A stretch of 42,774 bases of DNA from an uncultured Clostridia bacterium (GCA_947598785.1 CANQFL010000003.1:1-42774), one strand, 5' to 3'. Shown: positions 31,404 through 42,356, numbered from the stretch's first letter. Numbers and translations are program-made. Notes: generated by a model not told the origin, from the sequence alone.

Positions 31404-33899
31404 CTATTTACATTCAAATAAATTTTGCCCACAAGAAACAGAAACGGTAAGAGGAACAGTAAAATGGCAAATATTTTCCATTGTATCTTTTAAAATCGTT
31501 TTAACCATATCAACTTCATTGCTTGGAGCATCAATAATAAGTTCATCATGAATTTGTAAAATGACATGACTTTGCAGACCTTTTAATTTTTTAGAAACCT
31601 CAATCATAGCCAACTTAATCACATCAGAAGCAGTCCCCTGAAGAGGCATATTCATAGCAACTCTTTCTCCAAACTTTCTTACATTTGAATTAGAAGATTT
31701 GATTTCTGGAATATGTCTAATTCTTCCAAAATAGGATTTTATATAAGAGAACTCTTTAGCAAAATCAACATTTTTATCCATAAAAGTTTTAATTTTAGGA
31801 TAACGTTCAAAATAACTTTCAATATATGATTTAGCCTTCAAGCGAGATGTCTTAATATTTTGAGAAAGACCATAATCACTAATTCCATAAATAATTCCAA
31901 AATTAACAGCTTTCGCATCACGTCTTTGAGCACTAGTAACTTGATTGACATCTACGCCAAAAATTTCGCTTGCAGTTTTAGTATGAATATCAATGCCATG
32001 ACGATAAGCTTCAATCATGCTTTCTTCATCAGCTAGGTTTGCAAGCAACCTTAGTTCAATTTGATTATAGTCAGCAGAAATAATTTGTCCATTGGTATAT
32101 TTTGAGATAAAAATTTTTCTTAAATTTCTACCTTCTTCATCACGCGTAGGGATATTTTGCAAATTAGGTTCAGAGCTTGATAGACGACCTGTAGAAGTAA
32201 GAGTTTGATTAAAAATAGTGTGAATTACATCACCAGAAGATTTACAAATATTTTTATAAACATTAATGTAAGTGCTAACAAGTTTGCTAAGTTTACGATA
32301 AGAAATTATCAAATCAACAATATCATGTTGCCAACGGATATCGTCAAGGACTGCAAAATTAGTGGACTGTTTTTTATTATTAAAAGATTTTAGTCCAAGT
32401 TTTTCAAATAGAATATTAGCGACTTGTTTAGGAGAATTAATATTAAAATTTTCCCCTGCAAGTTGATAAATTTTTTGAGTCAAATCAGCAAGTTCGCTAG
32501 AATATTTTTCGTCCAAAACGTCAAGCATAGATTTATCAATTCTAAACCCCTCATCTTCCATATCGACTAAAACATTTACAAGAGGAATTTCAATATTATT
32601 GTATATATTATCAACTTTATCATCTATCATTTTCTTTTCTAAAGAAGTTTTTTCGTTGATGTATTCGTTTACAGAAATTTCAGGTAATTTAGGCAGCCCT
32701 GCATACAAAACATATCTTGCAATTTCGATATCAAAAAAATTAACTAAATCAATATTTATTTTTTTTAAAGTTTTAATATCTTCTTTAGCAGAAGAAGTAA
32801 TTTTAACAATATCTTTATTTTCAAAAATATTTTTCAATTTTAGCAACATTTCATTTGTATCAACAATTGGAGAGAATAAATCAATTTCTTTTTTTACATA
32901 AAAAATATCTTCTCCGTTAATAGCAAATTCCATTTTTTTTAAATCAAAGCAAAATACATTTTTAATATTTTTTATTAGTTCATCTATAACATTCAAATTT
33001 TCAATACAAATCCTATTTGCTTGTGTTTTATTAGAATGGACACCATCATTAAATAATTCTTTTCTATTAGTCAAACTCCTAAAATCCCAATTTTCAAAAA
33101 AGTCACGGAGTTGTTGAGAAAATGGAAATTGATACTGACATTCTTCTAAATTAAAACCGATTTCACAGTCAGTTTTAATAGTTGCTAATTTTTTTGACAT
33201 AACGCAAGACGAATAACCATTTTGCAATTTTTCTTTTAACTTTCCAGAAATTTCATCAATATGTAAATAAATGTTTTCTACATTATCATATTGTTCAAGC
33301 AAAGATAAAGCCGTTTTTTCACCTACTCCTGGAACACCTGGAATGTTATCTGATGCATCTCCCATAAGTGCTTTCAAGTCAATTATTCCACTAGGTTTTA
33401 AATGGTATTTTTCAAATAAACTTTTTTCATTAAAAACTTCAATTTCTGTAACACCCTTACGTGTCAACCAAACGGTAGTATTATCATCAATAAGTTGTAA
33501 AAGGTCCCTATCCCCTGAAACCAAGATAGTTTCTAAATTAGGAGTTTCTGAAAGAGTACCAATAATATCATCGGCTTCAATACCAGCGAACTCAAAAATT
33601 TTTATTCCCATAGTTTTAAGTAATTCTTTAATGATTGGAAATTGAGCCACTAAATCTGGAGGGGTTTCCTTTCTTTTAGCCTTATAACCTTCAAAAATAT
33701 CATTTCTAAAAGTTTTTCTTGCATGGTCAAAAGCGACAGCAAAATACTTTGGTTTTTGTTCTGTAATAAGCTTAACAATTAAATTAGCGAAACCAAATAC
33801 AGCCCCTGAAGGTTGTTTATCATGATTAGATAAATAAGGCATAGCATAATATGCCCTATTAGCCAAACTATTTCCGTCAATAATAATAAACTTATCCAA
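31404..33899 (-). CDS. polA: DNA polymerase I
   Basis: N-terminal 5'-3' exonuclease; family A polymerase motifs STGRLSSSEPNLQNIPTR, SADYNQIELRLLAN, RRDAKAVNFGIIYGIS, QIHDELI. Confidence 0.97.
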   Translation of the reverse strand: MDKFIIIDGNSLANRAYYAMPYLSNHDKQPSGAVFGFANLIVKLITEQKPKYFAVAFDHARKTFRNDIFEGYKAKRKETPPDLVAQFPIIKELLKTMGIKIFEFAGIEADDIIGTLSETPNLETILVSGDRDLLQLIDDNTTVWLTRKGVTEIEVFNEKSLFEKYHLKPSGIIDLKALMGDASDNIPGVPGVGEKTALSLLEQYDNVENIYLHIDEISGKLKEKLQNGYSSCVMSKKLATIKTDCEIGFNLEECQYQFPFSQQLRDFFENWDFRSLTNRKELFNDGVHSNKTQANRICIENLNVIDELIKNIKNVFCFDLKKMEFAINGEDIFYVKKEIDLFSPIVDTNEMLLKLKNIFENKDIVKITSSAKEDIKTLKKINIDLVNFFDIEIARYVLYAGLPKLPEISVNEYINEKTSLEKKMIDDKVDNIYNNIEIPLVNVLVDMEDEGFRIDKSMLDVLDEKYSSELADLTQKIYQLAGENFNINSPKQVANILFEKLGLKSFNNKKQSTNFAVLDDIRWQHDIVDLIISYRKLSKLVSTYINVYKNICKSSGDVIHTIFNQTLTSTGRLSSSEPNLQNIPTRDEEGRNLRKIFISKYTNGQIISADYNQIELRLLANLADEESMIEAYRHGIDIHTKTASEIFGVDVNQVTSAQRRDAKAVNFGIIYGISDYGLSQNIKTSRLKAKSYIESYFERYPKIKTFMDKNVDFAKEFSYIKSYFGRIRHIPEIKSSNSNVRKFGERVAMNMPLQGTASDVIKLAMIEVSKKLKGLQSHVILQIHDELIIDAPSNEVDMVKTILKDTMENICHFTVPLTVSVSCGQNLFECK

Positions 33900-34332: not shown

Positions 34333-34377
34333 TATAAAAAAAAGAAGAATCACGCTAATTTTGCGCAATTCTTCTTT
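34333..34377 (-). terminator. Terminator at the end of the phage-derived operon
   Basis: aaagaagaat (34341-34350) / attcttcttt (34368-34377) with T8 on the minus strand. Confidence 0.75.
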
Positions 34378-34403: not shown

Positions 34404-34661
34404 TTATTCACTTTTGTTTTTATCTATATCTTCATCATCAGATGTATCATCACTTTTGTCATTATTATCAGATTTACTATTCATACTTACGATACCTAAA
34501 ACAACAAATAGACCAGCAATAGACATAATACAATCTTCAACAATTTTGTTTTCAACTGTAAAGCCAAATAATTTACCAAATGAAGTTAATAAAATAACAA
34601 TAGCAGATGACAAGCTGACCCAAAAACTATAGTTCTTGAATTTATCAAAGAAGTTCTTCAT
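34404..34661 (-). CDS. Phage holin-like membrane protein
   Basis: MKNFFDKFKNYSFWVSLSSAIVILLTSFGKLFGFTVENKIVEDCIMSIAGLFVVLGIVSMNSK; resembles small phage holins found in Firmicutes. Confidence 0.7.
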   Translation of the reverse strand: MKNFFDKFKNYSFWVSLSSAIVILLTSFGKLFGFTVENKIVEDCIMSIAGLFVVLGIVSMNSKSDNNDKSDDTSDDEDIDKNKSE

Positions 34662-34878
34662 ATTCATCTCCATTTTTAAGAAAATCTTTTATTTCTTTTA
34701 AATCTTGTTTAACATCATTTAAAGTTTGCAAAAGAACAGTTAATTCTTGAATTGTTTGTTGGTATTTTGTTTCACGTTTAGAACTATCTTTAAGTTGATA
34801 ACAAAACAGCCAAACAAAGAGAATTGCGAACACGCCATTGCTTACCACAATGCTAATAATTTCATTCCAAATTTCCAT
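34645..34878 (-). CDS. BhlA/UviB-type holin-like protein
   Basis: Single N-terminal TM then charged coiled region: SNGVFAILFVWLFCYQLKDSSKRETKYQQTIQELTVLLQTLNDVKQDLKEIKDFL. Confidence 0.75.
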   Translation of the reverse strand: MEIWNEIISIVVSNGVFAILFVWLFCYQLKDSSKRETKYQQTIQELTVLLQTLNDVKQDLKEIKDFLKNGDEYEELL

Positions 34879-34965
34879 AACATTTCAAATTCCTTTTGAT
34901 TGTTTTATAATCATCGATTAAGATTTTTTTTAAAAAGAAATTAGTCATATCAACAAAATGACAAA

Positions 34966-36471
34966 TCATTGCAAAACATCAAAAACAATCATAGGTTTTT
35001 GAATATCACATTGATTTTCATTAGTTTTAAAAGAAAATTGGAAATTTTTTCCATAAATACAAACAGAAATACGTTGTTCATTAGGATTTCCAGTGAATTT
35101 ATAAACCTTAGTTTCTTCGTCAGATTTGATTTCAATTTCACAGTTAAATTTAGAGATTATAATGATTTCCTTAATTTTTTTACGCTTTGATTTATAACCT
35201 AAGTCTGTAAAAAAAGAAGTCCAACATTTATCAGTAACATTTTCAAAAATCGAGCCATTATAAACAAGTTCCCCTACCCTTTGTTTAAAATTATCGGTAT
35301 TGAAACACGCACAAAGTTTACTAAAATAAGGGATATCAATAGCTAAAATTTTTAATATATCAACACCCCTTAAAAGATTCAATTTAAAATTGTTAATATC
35401 TATTTCAAACAAAACATTATTTACATAACTTTGATTTTCGCAACCGACAACATTATCGTCATTAAAATTACATTTAGTAGCGTAATAATATTTTCCATTG
35501 AGGCAAGCAGAAGAAGCAAATTTATTATCAAGATTTTTAAAATAGACATCATAATCAGAAGCTATTTTATTAACTGAATTTCCATTGAAAGCATAAAGAC
35601 CATCTCTAGTCATAAAAAAGATATTTTCTCCACAAAGACAGACTGAATTTTCATAAATTCTAGAAGCAGAATTATAAAGATGAGTGAAGGAAAAATCTTT
35701 AGTAGAAGAATAAATAGAAATTTTAGTGATGCCATATTCTCTGAATAAATATACATAATCATTGAAGGCAATAACTTTATTGAAAGAACCGACATTATCT
35801 AAAAATTCAATAGTGTTATTTTCTTCATCTTCCCATTCTAAAAGGTTTGTATTACTTTTATAAATGAGCATATTACGGTTTGTGTTTGTAATTCCAAAAA
35901 ATTTATCATAATGTACAGCACATGAAATTATAGGTGGAATATTTTCATATAGAGAAGCTGTTACGCTTGTAATAGCAAGCATACCCTCCTTAGAAAAGAA
36001 AAGGCAAGCATCTTTACCACTGATACGATAAAGGCATTGATAAATAGGAAAGCTTTTTAAGGCAGTAGATTGAGGCCAAACCATACCCTCAAACTCATCA
36101 ATCAGAGGTAAACTCCAAATTTTGAATTTAGTATCAATCAGCATAAGGTTATAGAAATAAGAATTTGAGTCAGGTTGAAACCATCTATCAAGCCAAATTC
36201 CCTTAATAACATCAATATCTTCTGCAAAATTCGCAGTATGGCAATCTTGTAAATTATCAATAGAAGCTGGAATTGCCAAGTCCTGAAAACCTAGACCTGT
36301 TTTTAACGCGCCATTTACATAAGAAAGGTTATAAAAAGATTTACATTCGTTAGCATTTTTAAGTTGGTCGTCTAAATCAGAAACGACACCAGCGTCAAAG
36401 ATAGAGAAAATCAAATTTTTTTCATTTGATTTTTTATGTTTTTTAATATTCTTGTAAAAAATCAAAACCAA
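34966..36471 (-). CDS. Phage-associated 501-aa protein, possibly a tail/connector-stabilising or propeller-like protein
   Basis: Position after the head-connector gene; repeated beta-rich hydrophobic/aromatic segments such as KIWSLPLIDEF, FFMTRDGLYAFNGNSVNKIASDY. Confidence 0.45.
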   Translation of the reverse strand: MVLIFYKNIKKHKKSNEKNLIFSIFDAGVVSDLDDQLKNANECKSFYNLSYVNGALKTGLGFQDLAIPASIDNLQDCHTANFAEDIDVIKGIWLDRWFQPDSNSYFYNLMLIDTKFKIWSLPLIDEFEGMVWPQSTALKSFPIYQCLYRISGKDACLFFSKEGMLAITSVTASLYENIPPIISCAVHYDKFFGITNTNRNMLIYKSNTNLLEWEDEENNTIEFLDNVGSFNKVIAFNDYVYLFREYGITKISIYSSTKDFSFTHLYNSASRIYENSVCLCGENIFFMTRDGLYAFNGNSVNKIASDYDVYFKNLDNKFASSACLNGKYYYATKCNFNDDNVVGCENQSYVNNVLFEIDINNFKLNLLRGVDILKILAIDIPYFSKLCACFNTDNFKQRVGELVYNGSIFENVTDKCWTSFFTDLGYKSKRKKIKEIIIISKFNCEIEIKSDEETKVYKFTGNPNEQRISVCIYGKNFQFSFKTNENQCDIQKPMIVFDVLQ

Positions 36472-37022
36472 CCTCTTTTAGGTAGTAAATGTTCACCCTT
36501 TTTACTCCCAATAACAAATAAAGATTGTTTAAACCTTTCTTCCCAAATTTCAGCATCTTCACTAATTCCATCAATTAGAAGGTACTCACTAGCAACACCA
36601 TAGGCATAAATTCTACCAGTAAGACCTCTAACTTTTTCAACTTCATCATCAATATTAAGCACATCAGGCAAATAACTATAAGTAATAGAAGAAGCATTAC
36701 CAACAATTTCTATGTAATTAGAAAAAAGTTTAAATTTAAGATTAACACCATAGCGATTTTTAACAGAATAAACATTTATTAAATTTTTGCTTAAAGAAGA
36801 AAAATTTAATATAGAATTTTTCACAGAAATATTTTCATTAGTAAGAAAAGGGATATATTCACTTGCAATTTCTTGATTAACAAGATTAAAACATCTTAAC
36901 ATTATGTCAATTTTTTCTTGTTCTCTTTCTGAAAAAGTAGGACTTTCAGTTGACAGTTTTTTTTGAAGTTCTTTTTCTCCGACAAAATCACAAACCAAAC
37001 AAATAATTTCTTTAACTTTCAT
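36462..37022 (-). CDS. Head-tail connector/tail-tube-A-like phage protein
   Basis: 186 aa; position after capsid; segment VRGLTGRIYAYGVASEYLLIDGISEDAEIWEERFKQSL. Confidence 0.45.
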   Translation of the reverse strand: MKVKEIICLVCDFVGEKELQKKLSTESPTFSEREQEKIDIMLRCFNLVNQEIASEYIPFLTNENISVKNSILNFSSLSKNLINVYSVKNRYGVNLKFKLFSNYIEIVGNASSITYSYLPDVLNIDDEVEKVRGLTGRIYAYGVASEYLLIDGISEDAEIWEERFKQSLFVIGSKKGEHLLPKRGWF

Positions 37023-37332
37023 AAAGTTTCTCCTTGAAATTATTTAAAACATTTTTAATGTTTGCCTTTTCAAGTTTTTGATTATAAGAATCAATTTCTT
37101 TAAAAATTTCATCGCTATTTTGAACTCTAGTTTTGAGAACATAAAAGACGGAACGTTCATCTAAACAATCAAAAGGAAGCGTAAGACAATAGCTTCCTTT
37201 TTTTTGACCCGAATGATGAAGTTCAAATTTATTCGTATCCAAATTTCTCATAATAAAATAATCGCCATCAATAGCCTTAATTCTGTCAACTATTCCAAGA
37301 CAATCACTTTTTATTTCAAATAATTTTTTCAT
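37012..37332 (-). CDS. Small phage-module protein of unknown function (106 aa)
   Basis: Between the capsid and connector-like genes; KKLFEIKSDCLGIVDRIKAIDGDYFIMRNLDTNKFELHHSGQKKGSYCLTLPFDCLDERS. Confidence 0.55.
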   Translation of the reverse strand: MKKLFEIKSDCLGIVDRIKAIDGDYFIMRNLDTNKFELHHSGQKKGSYCLTLPFDCLDERSVFYVLKTRVQNSDEIFKEIDSYNQKLEKANIKNVLNNFKEKLYES

Positions 37333-37335
37333 AAT

Positions 37336-38499
37336 TTATTCTTTTATAGAAGTTGGAATAGAAACAACATGACCAACACCAGAAGGTTTATGGCAAAGAA
37401 GTTCAGTATATTTAACCAAAGTAGCAGAATAAGAAGGGAAAGAATCATTTTGTTTAAGGACTCTACCGGCTTCATCTTCAAGCCATTTCCAATCGCCAAG
37501 TTCGTAGAAAACCAAATCATCAGTATTGATAAAGTAGCATTCACCTGCGTCAACTTGTTTAGTAGGAACAATAGGAATACCGAAATGAGTTAAAACTTTC
37601 ATACCATCTTCAAGAGTAGTAAATTCAATATTTTTATTATATAAAGTTAAATATTTTTGATAAAGGTTTTTAAGTTCATAAGAGCAGTTAATAAAATTAA
37701 CATTAGTCCCCTTCATTTCAAGTTCGTCAATAATACCTTGCACATATTCTTGGTCAAAAGCATCTGTTTCTTTAGCAGTAATGTTTGTAGCGTTAATATT
37801 AGGTTGAGCACTTCTTGTTACGCCGTACAAAGTAGGATTACTAACAATACCCTTAAGACCGATAATTTCGCTATCTTTAGAGCCATGCATATACATAACG
37901 TCACTAGTAGCAATAGTTTCTAAAGTATCAAGAGTAATAACTTTAGTAGAATAATCAACACTTTTGATTTTAACATTAGAAACTTTAAGGGAAGAATTAT
38001 CTTTAGAATAAATATCAACATACATTCCAGGAGCAATTCCACCGACCTTATCGACAGTAATTGTAGATTCAGTGTTAGTGAGAGTTGCTAAAGTTCCACT
38101 TCCATCTCCGTAAAGCATTCTAGAGAGATTAAAGATGCTAGCTTTTAAAAGAGAATCCATACCGTCTTGAAGAAGGTTAACGAAGGAATTAACATCTGAA
38201 GAAGAGCATCTAATGGCCTTATCGCTAATTTCAAATCTTCCATATAAATTTTTAAGTGGAGCAACGAAAGAAAGGTAAGGAGTTTGAACTCCGTCAGGTA
38301 ATTTAGAAGTTTCAGAACCTGCCATAATACCCCCATTGATACCGATAGGAGCTACAACACGAATTTCTTTACCTATAATATTTCTATTGCTTCTTTTAAT
38401 TCTGCTGAAAAGTGGATTAGTTTTAGTGTTAATTTGGTCAGCAATAACACCCAAATAAACATCTTTAAGAACATTTTCTGCATTAGATAATGTAATCAT
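37336..38499 (-). CDS. Phage major capsid protein (HK97-fold type)
   Basis: 387 aa; SNAENVLKDVYLGVIADQINTKTNPLFSRIKRS...GSETSKLPDGVQTPYLSFVAPLKNLYGRFEISDKAIR; follows portal and scaffold. Confidence 0.85.
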   Translation of the reverse strand: MITLSNAENVLKDVYLGVIADQINTKTNPLFSRIKRSNRNIIGKEIRVVAPIGINGGIMAGSETSKLPDGVQTPYLSFVAPLKNLYGRFEISDKAIRCSSSDVNSFVNLLQDGMDSLLKASIFNLSRMLYGDGSGTLATLTNTESTITVDKVGGIAPGMYVDIYSKDNSSLKVSNVKIKSVDYSTKVITLDTLETIATSDVMYMHGSKDSEIIGLKGIVSNPTLYGVTRSAQPNINATNITAKETDAFDQEYVQGIIDELEMKGTNVNFINCSYELKNLYQKYLTLYNKNIEFTTLEDGMKVLTHFGIPIVPTKQVDAGECYFINTDDLVFYELGDWKWLEDEAGRVLKQNDSFPSYSATLVKYTELLCHKPSGVGHVVSIPTSIKE

Positions 38500-38511
38500 A
38501 AAAAACTCCTT

Positions 38512-39135
38512 TTAATTTAATAAATCAATCACCACCTTTTTAGCTTCTTCAAAAGTGTCAGGTTTTTTCAAAGTAGGTTTAGTAACTTTTTCTCCACTAT
38601 TTGAAGAAATAACGATAGGTGGTTTATCGCCCAAATTTTTTAAATAGTTTTCAACGACAACTTTTTGGACTTGGTCGTCATTTAAAATAAGATTTTTGAA
38701 AAGAGGTTCATTGATACGATTTGGAGCGCACAATTTTTCATACAAAATACCAGCCCAAACTTTTTCAATATCCTCTTCCGAGCATTGACTTTCATTCAAA
38801 CGTGAACGAATTTCATTCACATAAGAACAAGCTTCCTGATTTTTAGAAAGGAACTCATTGAAAGCGTTTTGTTTTTTATCAAAAGATTGGCTTTCAAGAG
38901 TTTTATCTTTCTCCAATTCAGATAGTCTTTGGCTTTTACGAGTAAATTCAGCTTGAAGATTATTATAAGCTTCAAACAAGTCGTTTACATTTTTAAATTT
39001 ACCAATAGGAACGCCCTTTTCTGCTTCACCTGTGACAGCTGATAAGTTTTCTTCAATCTGAGGAGAGCCTGAAGAGTTTTCTTCAAAAGAAGGTTGAACA
39101 TCAATTGGTTGTTCTCCTAAATTTTCATTTTCCAT
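38512..39135 (-). CDS. Phage scaffolding-like protein
   Basis: 207 aa acidic coiled-coil between portal and capsid; VPIGKFKNVNDLFEAYNNLQAEFTRKSQRLSELEK. Confidence 0.75.
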   Translation of the reverse strand: MENENLGEQPIDVQPSFEENSSGSPQIEENLSAVTGEAEKGVPIGKFKNVNDLFEAYNNLQAEFTRKSQRLSELEKDKTLESQSFDKKQNAFNEFLSKNQEACSYVNEIRSRLNESQCSEEDIEKVWAGILYEKLCAPNRINEPLFKNLILNDDQVQKVVVENYLKNLGDKPPIVISSNSGEKVTKPTLKKPDTFEEAKKVVIDLLN

Positions 39136-39136
39136 A

Positions 39137-40969
39137 TTAAACTCCTTTAAATTTTTTATGATTACGGATATGTTCTAAAAATAAATTTTCGATTTTTTTA
39201 TCAAAATCAGAATTATATAAATTTTTAAGCATAAAAGCGATATGTTGATTAATATGTAACTCATGGTTATCAATTTCTTTAACATCAACATAAATGCCAT
39301 TAGACAATTTAGTATTTTCAACATCTGCATTTTTTGAATGTAATTCATTTAAATCAACAGAAGAATCCCAAACGCCGAAACCGATATTTTCCAAAATTTT
39401 ATTTTTCATAGAGCTAGAAATTTTACCATTTTCATCAGAAAGTAAACCTTTATCTAAAAGTGTAAAAATCATATTTCTACGTTGTGCTAAAGAATCATTA
39501 GTTTCATTATCTGTTTCAAATTGTACATCATCACTAGTGATGTCGCTTCCCTTAAAATAGGTAACATCTAAATCACCGTTGTCGCCTACAATTTTAATAA
39601 GTCTAGGGAATGTAGCAAATTGCTTATAAAGTCTAAGAATATGTTTAGCTATAGTTTTGACAGCAGTTTTCATACTATCAGTAGTAAATTTCAATCTAGT
39701 TTCATTTTCATCAATTAAAAGTTCTAGAGCGACACCACTCATAGCAGAAATATGTTCCATATTACCAATTTCGCTAGTACCACATAAAGTAGTAAATTCT
39801 TGTAAAAGATGTTCTTCTTCTTTTTCAAAATCACTAGGAACAGAATCACCATTAAGGAAAGAAGGAGAATTAGAGCCTTGTCTATAAACTAAAATTTTAC
39901 CTGGAGCAAGGCCCTCTTCCTCAAGATTATCAATATCCACACTACCGTCCTCAACAGCAAGAACACCCATAGTCAAACGGTTAAGATATTCATGTTTACG
40001 ATTTTTAACAGCATTATAAGCTCTTTGAATAGGGATAAGGCGAGAAATCATGCTAACGCCCCAGAAATTACCGACTTCTTGATTACAAATTTGTTTAACA
40101 AAAGGAAATTCACGTTTACCATCAATTCCATTAATATAAGGCATATCGCCGTTAAAAACAAGTTTATCACCAGCGACAATGATTAACTGACCATTAGGGT
40201 AATTTTCATTAGGTTTAACATATTTTTCAATAACAATAGCCGAATTTTTCTTAGTAGTTTCGATAAGTTTAGTAACCATACCAAAATAACCAAGTCCCCC
40301 TAAAGAACTAGAAGAGCCATCGAGAGAATAGACATTAATGTCTTTACCTTGAACATCGATACCGAACATTTGTTTAATTTGTTCAACAGAATAGGCTTTG
40401 GCATGGATTAAACTTTGGCAATCTTCCAAATTTTCGTGAGTAGAACTATCAGGATATATTTCAAAAGGAGAACAGACAGAAATTTCAACATCACCTGTCT
40501 TAATTTTATTACCATTTTCCTCAATAGCTACCACTTGTCCCAAATTAGAATTCCAAGTGATTTTATAGAAACTAGTACCACAAATTTCACTCCATTTAGT
40601 AGCTTGATTAATTTTAGAAGTGATGTTCATTTTGCTAGTAACAGAATTTAAAATTTTTTTACCAACTTTCGCCGTATAAATATCAGATTCGTCATTAGTA
40701 GCAGGAACAATATACATTTTAGGCTTAATGTTAGAAAGTTTTGAAAGTCTAATATCAATTAAAGGTGCGATATGGTTAAAGACTTCTCTTTCCTGCCAAA
40801 AATATTGTTTATCAATTTCTCTTACCAAGCCACCATACCCCACATCGCAAAATTGATTACCCATGTAAAAATTCATATTAAGTTGCCATTGACTATCAAA
40901 GCATTTTCTATCAGCAACACGACTTTCAAAATCGGCTAAAGTTTGCTTAACAATATCGTTATCTTTCAT
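39137..40969 (-). CDS. Phage portal protein (P22-like/podovirus type)
   Basis: 610 aa; NHIAPLIDIRLSKLSNIKPKMYIVPATNDESDIYTAKVGKKILNSV...GNFWGVSMISRLIPIQRAYNAVKNRKHEYLNRL...SGVALELLIDENETRL. Confidence 0.85.
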   Translation of the reverse strand: MKDNDIVKQTLADFESRVADRKCFDSQWQLNMNFYMGNQFCDVGYGGLVREIDKQYFWQEREVFNHIAPLIDIRLSKLSNIKPKMYIVPATNDESDIYTAKVGKKILNSVTSKMNITSKINQATKWSEICGTSFYKITWNSNLGQVVAIEENGNKIKTGDVEISVCSPFEIYPDSSTHENLEDCQSLIHAKAYSVEQIKQMFGIDVQGKDINVYSLDGSSSSLGGLGYFGMVTKLIETTKKNSAIVIEKYVKPNENYPNGQLIIVAGDKLVFNGDMPYINGIDGKREFPFVKQICNQEVGNFWGVSMISRLIPIQRAYNAVKNRKHEYLNRLTMGVLAVEDGSVDIDNLEEEGLAPGKILVYRQGSNSPSFLNGDSVPSDFEKEEEHLLQEFTTLCGTSEIGNMEHISAMSGVALELLIDENETRLKFTTDSMKTAVKTIAKHILRLYKQFATFPRLIKIVGDNGDLDVTYFKGSDITSDDVQFETDNETNDSLAQRRNMIFTLLDKGLLSDENGKISSSMKNKILENIGFGVWDSSVDLNELHSKNADVENTKLSNGIYVDVKEIDNHELHINQHIAFMLKNLYNSDFDKKIENLFLEHIRNHKKFKGV

Positions 40970-41187
40970 ACACGCTCCTTTTTATTTTTTTTAAATGGTG
41001 CATCGATAGGTTTAGGCACCATAAGTTTAGAAAAACATTCAAACATTTTTTTCATACAATCTTCACAAAAAACCAAATCACGCCTGATAAAACCTTTAGT
41101 GCTAAAACTATATTTAGCCAAGTTTTTACATCCATAAAAATCACATTTTAGTTGATTTTTACAAATATCAATTCTCATTATCATCAA
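40966..41187 (-). CDS. Small zinc-ribbon-like protein (73 aa)
   Basis: CKNQLKCDFYGCKNLAKYSF...VFCEDCMKKMFEC; start/stop overlap with the portal gene. Confidence 0.6.
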   Translation of the reverse strand: MMIMRIDICKNQLKCDFYGCKNLAKYSFSTKGFIRRDLVFCEDCMKKMFECFSKLMVPKPIDAPFKKNKKERV

Positions 41188-41455
41188 CCTCCTTATCTTT
41201 TAAAAGTTGTAAAAGACGATTTTTTTCAGCAATAAGTTGTTCATCAGTCATATGAGTGAAGTCATCATCTGAATTAGATTGTTCAAGGAGAAACCTTAAA
41301 GCGTTCAAGTCAGGAGGATTAATTTTTTTAGTGATTTTACGCTTAGAAAGTAAAGGTTTACCGTTTTCATCACTGACATATTCCTCAATAATTTCATCAC
41401 TTTCAAAACCGAGAGCTTTTTTAATAAGAGCTTGTTTAATATCTTCTTCGTTCAC
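41168..41455 (-). CDS. Small phage-module protein, weak resemblance to a terminase small subunit C-terminus (95 aa)
   Basis: KKALGFESDEIIEEYVSDENGKPLLSKRKITKKINPPDLNALRFLLEQ resembles the GY..TEV.EE...KVTK..PPD..A..FWL pattern remembered from TerS-like proteins; GTG start with AAGGA RBS. Confidence 0.45.
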   Translation of the reverse strand: MNEEDIKQALIKKALGFESDEIIEEYVSDENGKPLLSKRKITKKINPPDLNALRFLLEQSNSDDDFTHMTDEQLIAEKNRLLQLLKDKEVDDNEN

Positions 41456-41585: not shown

Positions 41586-42356
41586 ATGGAAAAGTTACTA
41601 GAATACGAAAAAGTGAATTACATTTATCAAACAAAAACAGATGAAATAGAAGCATTAAGAGATGTAAATTTCACGATAGAAGAAGAGGAATTTGCAACAT
41701 TGGTAGGTCCAAGTGGATGTGGAAAAACAACAATACTATCTCTAACAGCAGGGCTATTAAAGCCAACATCAGGAAAAATAAAATTTAAAGGGAATGAAAA
41801 AATAGATACAAGACAAATTGGATATATGTTTCAAAAAGATTATTTATTTGAATGGAGAAGTGTATGGAAAAACATCACACTAGGCTTAGAGATACAGAAA
41901 CCAGAAGATAAAGAGCAGAAGATGAAGATTGCAGAAGAGTTAATAAAAAAATACGACCTCTACAATTTTATAAACCAGCGCCCTCGTTCGTTATCAGGAG
42001 GAATGCGACAAAGAGTAGCATTAATAAGAACGTTAGCACTAAACCCAAGTTTATTATTATTAGACGAGCCATTTTCAGCATTAGATTATCAAACAAGATT
42101 ATCAGTATGTGACGATGTATATAGCATAATAAAGAATGAAAAGAAGACTGCATTGTTAGTAACACACGATATTTCGGAAGCGATATGTATGTCAGACAAG
42201 ATAATAGTATTATCAAAAAGACCAGCGACTGTAAAAGAGGAGATGAAATTAGAATTAAAAGGGAAGACACCATTAGAAAAAAGGAAAATGAAAGACGAAA
42301 GTTTTTCAAAATTATTTGATAAGATATGGAGTGAACTAACAGATGAAACAGAATAA
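41586..42356 (+). CDS. ABC transporter ATP-binding protein (SsuB/TauB/ThiZ-type)
   Basis: VGPSGCGKTTILSLTAGLLKPTSG, LSGGMRQRVALIRTLALNPSLLLLDEPFSALDYQTR. Confidence 0.92.
   Translation: MEKLLEYEKVNYIYQTKTDEIEALRDVNFTIEEEEFATLVGPSGCGKTTILSLTAGLLKPTSGKIKFKGNEKIDTRQIGYMFQKDYLFEWRSVWKNITLGLEIQKPEDKEQKMKIAEELIKKYDLYNFINQRPRSLSGGMRQRVALIRTLALNPSLLLLDEPFSALDYQTRLSVCDDVYSIIKNEKKTALLVTHDISEAICMSDKIIVLSKRPATVKEEMKLELKGKTPLEKRKMKDESFSKLFDKIWSELTDETE

Follow-up and report, generated by a model that had tools for sequence, protein, structure and literature searches.

Gene transfer agents (GTAs) are believed to influence recombination in bacteria, and nearly all of those characterised so far are, to our knowledge, from Alphaproteobacteria. 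The published system closest to the locus analysed here, as compared by description, is FpGTA of Faecalibacterium, whose particles measure ~40 nm and carry 8.4-8.9 kb of DNA (PMC12946183). GTA-like packaging in virus-like particles has also been observed in Christensenellaceae, with no genes named (PMC12946183). Like FpGTA, our locus belongs to gut clostridia, is podovirus-like and near-universal in its genus, and is completed by a second locus. The FpGTA operon has ten genes, among them TerL, a TerS devoid of an obvious DNA-binding domain, portal, scaffold and capsid. Ours also has ten, with a short HTH-less TerS followed by portal, scaffold and capsid; in other families of the order the series starts with TerL (TerL-TerS-Zn-portal-scaffold-MCP), and in the genus studied here TerL is split off. 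Our locus differs in belonging to another bacterial lineage, and in the content of the second locus, which holds baseplate, tail-fibre and lysis genes for FpGTA, and TerL with a sigma-like regulator for the cassette. With RcGTA and the Rhodogtaviriformidae, the cassette shares vertical inheritance, a distribution over several loci, a short HTH-less TerS and terminase-driven packaging machinery. However, the RcGTA particle has a 49-nm tail (PMC9662315), whereas the cassette, found in Clostridia, combines a P22-type portal with a podoviral adaptor and a gp10-type hub. A long-tailed particle of the Rhodogtaviriformidae (RcGTA) type was rejected for this locus, the adaptor and hub folds being podoviral.

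The window, i.e. the whole stretch of DNA that was analysed, is 42,774 nt long, and contains between positions 41455 and 34404 an operon of ten consecutive, tightly packed minus-strand open reading frames (Table 1). All ten are undamaged, as the original prediction had it, and the junctions between them, in operon order, are of -20, -4, 1, 12, 3, -11, -10, 87 and -29 bp, so that the single 87-bp gap it described is exact by junction count. The unit is closed by one terminator-like hairpin on the minus strand, as foreseen, and its flanks are also as described, with a membrane protein and polA downstream and, on the upstream side, an ABC-transporter ATPase encoded by the other strand. Its AT-richness is like that of its neighbours (GC of 0.298 for the operon vs 0.296 for the window). 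With a probability that we put at roughly three in four (0.74), these genes provide the head, the first parts of the tail and the release functions of a P22-type podovirus particle that uncultured gut Clostridia have domesticated and inherit vertically, and that serves as a GTA.

Table 1. Features of the head operon and of its surroundings (positions in the window).
Feature	Position	Strand	Evidence or conservation
Short TerS, 95 aa, C-terminal type, no HTH domain	41168..41455	-	phrog_309; 33/33 genus loci
Zinc-ribbon-like protein, 73 aa, paired cysteines	40966..41187	-	Sequence; kept in 33/33 genus loci
P22-type portal protein, 610 aa	39137..40969	-	PF16510 1.9e-20; phrog_156 8e-36
Scaffold-like protein, 207 aa	38512..39135	-	Position between portal and MCP; faster evolving; 33/33 genus loci
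Major capsid protein (MCP), 387 aa, putative HK97-fold type	37336..38499	-	phrog_14242 (major head protein) 1.9e-45
Conserved head-module protein, 106 aa	37012..37332	-	Position-equivalent gene in prophages L422, L426, L227 matches profile
Predicted podovirus head-to-tail adaptor, 186 aa	36462..37022	-	AlphaFold2 model pLDDT 88.5 + Foldseek
Predicted P22 gp10-type tail hub / nozzle, beta-rich, 501 aa	34966..36471	-	AlphaFold2 model pLDDT 86.3 + Foldseek
BhlA-family holin-like protein, 77 aa	34645..34878	-	PF10960 1.9e-15
Phage holin_1-like protein, 89 aa	34404..34673	-	phrog_297 1.1e-11; PF04531 2.2e-4
Intrinsic-terminator-like hairpin	34341..34377	-	15-pair stem then T run; closes operon
Host ABC-transporter ATPase, upstream neighbour, outside particle set	41586..42356	+	Beside cassette in 32/33 genus loci
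Host polA, downstream neighbour, outside particle set	31404..33899	-	13/33 genus loci, window's subclade

The portal and capsid identities proposed from the sequence were both recovered by profile matches (Table 1). The HK97-type fold of the capsid is probable, and its profile match to the solved capsid 7f38 was weak. No match was found for the scaffold-like protein among curated families, and its profile matches a gene at the equivalent position in prophages L422 and L426. These two prophages and a third, L418, reside in other clostridial orders (genomes G467, G374 and G370, respectively), and carry homologues of TerL, portal and MCP, arranged as in the cassette; L422 and L426 also have scaffold- and 106-aa-type genes. 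A relative of the zinc-ribbon gene lies between TerL and portal in the true prophages L416, L418 and L426.

Sequence searches gave no useful match for the 186-aa and 501-aa proteins, and both were resolved by their predicted folds, structure prediction having been suggested for the reading frames of the operon and run on these two. The 186-aa model, from a protein first described as connector-like, retrieved with Foldseek the tail or connector proteins of KHP30, Pa223, SU10 and N4, and more weakly T7 gp11, which points to a podovirus tail adaptor. With the 501-aa model, matches were to the Pa223 tail (2.5e-19), VP1 (6e-17), GP4 (2e-13) and P22 gp10 (1.6e-11). The predicted hub and adaptor folds match solved podovirus tails, as in P22, GP4, VP1 and Pa223, and suggest that the products of the operon are a head and the first portion of a short podoviral tail. 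The initial reading of a phage head without the rest was thus too restrictive, as predicted tail parts account for two of the ten genes. In P22, the genes succeed one another as portal, scaffold, coat, adaptor and hub, and the cassette has a like order. It differs from a P22-type module by having no tail spike, needle, identified ejection proteins, replication or integration genes, and by its cut-down TerS and relocated TerL.

The last two genes correspond to the pair of holin-like proteins that had been announced, one of the BhlA family (PF10960) and one of the Phage_holin_1 family. One of the two matches phrog_2429, a phage family annotated as bacteriocin-related. Neither endolysin, receptor-binding nor tail-fibre gene was found with the head operon or with the TerL locus. 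The DUF7934 gene present in the cassette of other families has been lost in the window's genus, with a C-terminal remnant of ~95 aa left in some species.

PBSX of Bacillus subtilis is likewise a domesticated phage-like particle of a Gram-positive host. It is a defective prophage, larger than the cassette and contiguous, whose tail is long and contractile, and it kills rather than transfers. A particle used for killing or competition in the manner of PBSX would package host DNA or nothing, be released by lysis and harm relatives. The bacteriocin-related match of one holin-like protein and the lack of a receptor or tail-fibre gene with either locus would agree with such a use, and vertical retention is compatible with either function; the authors of the FpGTA study leave the same possibility open (PMC12946183). 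However, the tail parts of the cassette are a short podoviral adaptor and hub, neither contractile nor long, no toxin domain was found, and the retention and co-inheritance of TerL and TerS argue that packaging matters. We therefore consider a killing particle unlikely, with a chance small but worth keeping in mind, and favour a GTA.

The original prediction reported no large terminase, which is correct for the window, but not for the genome. With a profile built from the TerL genes that adjoin the cassette in other families (PF03237, PF17289), a TerL was found in 34 of the 37 genomes of the genus, at a separate locus next to a sigma-factor-like regulator, and the genome-wide search that could have confirmed its absence thus recovered it. 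In the window's own genome it lies on contig C6 (22884-24293). When only cassette-bearing genomes are counted, TerL is present in 33/35 of the genus and 8/8 of the other families. The idea of a TerL acting in trans was right in that the gene sits at a second chromosomal locus and is inherited together with the head genes, rather than being taken from some other phage.

The order T0, divergent T2, TerL, usually followed by T3, was the same in all 20 TerL loci fetched. T0 is sigma-70 region-4-like and matches phage transcriptional activators; it was detected in 35/37 genomes of the genus, and adjoins TerL wherever both share a contig. T2 (L345:10394-11188) is a secreted SH3-like protein and T3 (L345:6399-8813) a large secreted protein. 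Both are conserved, on either side of TerL, and T2 also adjoins TerL in other families.

In other families, the order is T0 / -T2 / TerL-TerS-Zn-portal-scaffold-MCP-106aa-adaptor-hub-DUF7934-BhlA-holin. Because TerL directly precedes TerS there, the split seen in the window's genus is derived. TerL and head are joined in G118, which belongs to another genus of the same family, and apart in the window's genus and in G269. Where a single contig holds both, TerL and portal are ~6-7 kb from each other in G003, G034, G024 and G019, and 32-149 kb in G004, G021, G030, G033, G016, G026 and G006. ABC-transporter genes lie between the two in the three loci examined among the four with short spacing, and we infer that an insertion of transporter genes, followed by rearrangement, split the motor from the head. 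Two MAGs (G009 and G012) have the head operon and lack TerL and T0, perhaps as a result of assembly gaps. Head and TerL are both missing from G063 and G198, as expected if the two loci work together.

Of the 319 positions of the TerS family phrog_309, the short TerS of the window matches 199-245 only. It had been called a TerS-like fragment, a label that proved wrong because a TerS of this short form is conserved throughout the order. No HTH match was found in the cassette TerS proteins, neither in that of the window nor in its relatives. Prophages L422 and L426, in contrast, have an HTH-type or Terminase_2-family TerS upstream of TerL, and they differ further from the cassette by their replication genes, DnaB in L422 and SSB in L426. 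The TerS of RcGTA is reduced in the same way, without DNA-binding domain, and binds DNA weakly and unspecifically (PMC6854486); that of FpGTA has no obvious DNA-binding domain (PMC12946183).

Another explanation is that the genes build a repurposed protein shell, or a secretion-like structure, which packages no DNA. That a portal can be kept without capsid genes is shown by the orphan portals of L420, L421 and L423. In the cassette, though, none of portal, scaffold, capsid, TerS, adaptor and hub has been lost, and TerL and the regulator are conserved at the second site. Since portal, TerS and TerL are all retained, a DNA-free shell is very unlikely.

Intact portal and MCP genes, almost always in single copy, are present in 35/37 genomes of the genus and in 8 of the 24 other families sampled. 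At the level of the order, which appears to be Christensenellales of GTDB, the portal was found in 178 of 297 genomes, nearly always as one copy, and in few genomes elsewhere in the class; many of the order's families have no cassette. In the 33 loci of the genus the ten genes are collinear throughout, except for one truncated contig without the two holins, and such a presence of every cassette gene is far beyond chance. Conservation of both polA and the ABC transporter as neighbours had been proposed as a check. It was verified for the ABC transporter (Table 1), and for polA in the window's subclade only, within the genus. In another family polA is also found downstream of the cassette (L066 of G054), and groEL flanks the cassette in two further families and in seven species of the genus.

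Phylogenies were compared for 28 genomes from six families, with a single marker, rpoB, as host tree. The head tree shared 18/25 splits with the RpoB tree and the TerL tree 14/25, against at most 3 and 2, respectively, in 2000 leaf shuffles. RpoB, head and TerL trees showed no branch-pair conflict at bootstrap ≥95, and distance correlations were 0.87-0.96. Values of dN/dS were mostly between 0.02 and 0.33 overall (0.02-0.13 for the portal, 0.05-0.20 for the capsid, up to 0.33 for the scaffold), and cassette dS was similar to rpoB dS where unsaturated. By these trees, the cassette is vertically inherited and co-diversifies with its host. The checks of synteny, phylogeny and selection on portal and MCP that the original prediction called for were thus passed, and its proposal of a long-retained, domesticated locus is well borne out by this near-universal, single-copy, collinear cassette under purifying selection, in conserved surroundings.

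These data bear on the possibility that the locus is what remains of a defective prophage, in decay and retained by chance. The lack of integrase and replication genes would fit with a remnant, as would the decay observed in some lineages (G050 and G060). Against this, frames are intact in 40 head loci, dN/dS is well below 1, the genes are collinear in the 33 genus loci and their phylogeny is host-like. Purifying selection and universality refute a remnant for the window's genus, and we regard it as extremely improbable.

The decaying copies themselves (G050:C20:28705-37921 and G060:C32:1442-3522) both contain a partial TerL, accompanied by a capsid remnant in G050 and a partial DUF7934 in G060, indicating that the cassette has been lost by decay in some lineages. 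A recent loss was also envisaged for G029, whose RpoB is nearly identical to that of G022. Its ABC-transporter neighbour is missing too, so that a MAG gap is likelier. The window's genome is itself a MAG, 69.7% complete. In L188 (13950-21068), an island with C-5 cytosine methylase and McrBC-like genes interrupts the cassette after the capsid gene.

The phage-type structural genes, and the homologous modules that true prophages of other clostridia contain (L422, L426), could also reflect a phage, prophage or phage satellite that is active and was integrated recently. Yet no integrase, repressor or replication gene was found in the cassette, or recognised beside it, in the window's genus, and the lack, in close relatives, of excised circular forms and of any contig combining the cassette with integrase and replication genes also speaks against it. 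Chromosomal neighbours are shared across species, and partly across families, trees are congruent, TerL is at another locus, 6-149 kb away where one contig holds both, and the nearest INPHARED phage is only ~25% identical to the cassette. Recent integration is therefore highly improbable. A temperate prophage was rejected, since neither the integration, regulation and replication genes nor the sporadic distribution of such an element was found, the cassette being near-universal in the genus. So was a PICI-type satellite: the locus has no integrase and encodes its own capsid, and its own TerL lies elsewhere. From the initial choice between a GTA-like agent, a satellite and a protein shell, only the first is well supported.

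Searches of viral contigs returned one contig when single window proteins were used, and 69 and at least 80 with alignment queries. The T0/T2/TerL arrangement was seen in IMG/VR contigs L185, L186, L188, L190, L194, L197, L198, L200, L202, L204, L213 and L217. Many such contigs are probably chromosomal fragments of the cassette classed as viruses, and because they represent the same locus, membership in IMG/VR was not counted as evidence of a virus.

The definition of GTAs, with its criteria, was taken from PMC9662315. Particle proteins derived from caudoviricetes are indicated by the homologies or folds of portal, capsid, TerL, adaptor and hub. Full endogenisation, often over several loci, is seen in the separation of the head and TerL/T0 loci and in the lack of a cassette integrase, and vertical inheritance in the congruence of RpoB, head and TerL trees (28 genomes, 6 families). 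A further criterion is that one particle cannot package all of the agent's own genes, and the TerL-portal spacing that bears on it is ~6-7 kb in four genomes and 32-149 kb in seven. For the packaging of mostly random host DNA the indications are indirect, namely the HTH-less TerS and the GTA-like packaging reported in Christensenellaceae (PMC12946183). With the three features named first, the cassette is GTA-like rather than a proven GTA; most likely, its particle would be a GTA carrying pieces of host DNA between cells. Under this proposal, the T0 regulator would switch on both loci in some cells, and the capsid would assemble on the scaffold around the portal. TerL, together with the HTH-less TerS, would fill the head with unspecific host DNA, and the adaptor and hub would seal it. 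Particles would be released by the two holins and an endolysin supplied in trans, and close kin would take up the DNA, possibly via ComEC.

RcGTA recipients need ComEC (PMC10883770). This protein is kept in 34/37 genomes of the window's genus, which is compatible with DNA delivery but is not proof of it. One subclade of the genus has comEC downstream of the cassette and in the same orientation in ten species, at a distance of 109-136 bp in L052, L061 and L062, and of 1.5-4.8 kb in L045, L046, L049, L051, L053, L056 and L057. This adjacency could couple particle production with DNA uptake.

We put forward, tentatively and at slightly less than even odds, a wider interpretation. The cassettes might represent an ancient, order-wide GTA lineage of Clostridia, descended from a P22-type podovirus and domesticated independently of the alphaproteobacterial GTAs. 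In the family studied here the motor would have split off with a sigma-like master regulator, and in one subclade the system would be physically coupled to comEC, with production and uptake side by side. A co-diversifying cassette occurs in over half the genomes sampled from a gut order of Clostridia, and is kept although these measure ~1 Mb; if its function is as proposed, GTAs would rank among the major and ancient means by which genes are exchanged in the animal gut. The cassette also offers candidate genes for the DNA packaging, so far unexplained, that was reported from Christensenellaceae in 2026, and the candidate master regulator (T0) and HTH-less TerS are testable handles on the loss of packaging specificity.

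Orphan portals were met at two other kinds of site. A P22-like portal of ~622 aa (L420:8716-10584) stands immediately downstream of the spoIIIAE-AH genes, and the same site is occupied in L421 and L423, which makes three species, all of a clostridial genus other than the window's. Neither capsid nor TerL genes lie in the vicinity, and the portal may have been exapted as a ring or channel. In a further family, an orphan portal (L415:8980-10926) adjoins dprA-like and topA-like genes.
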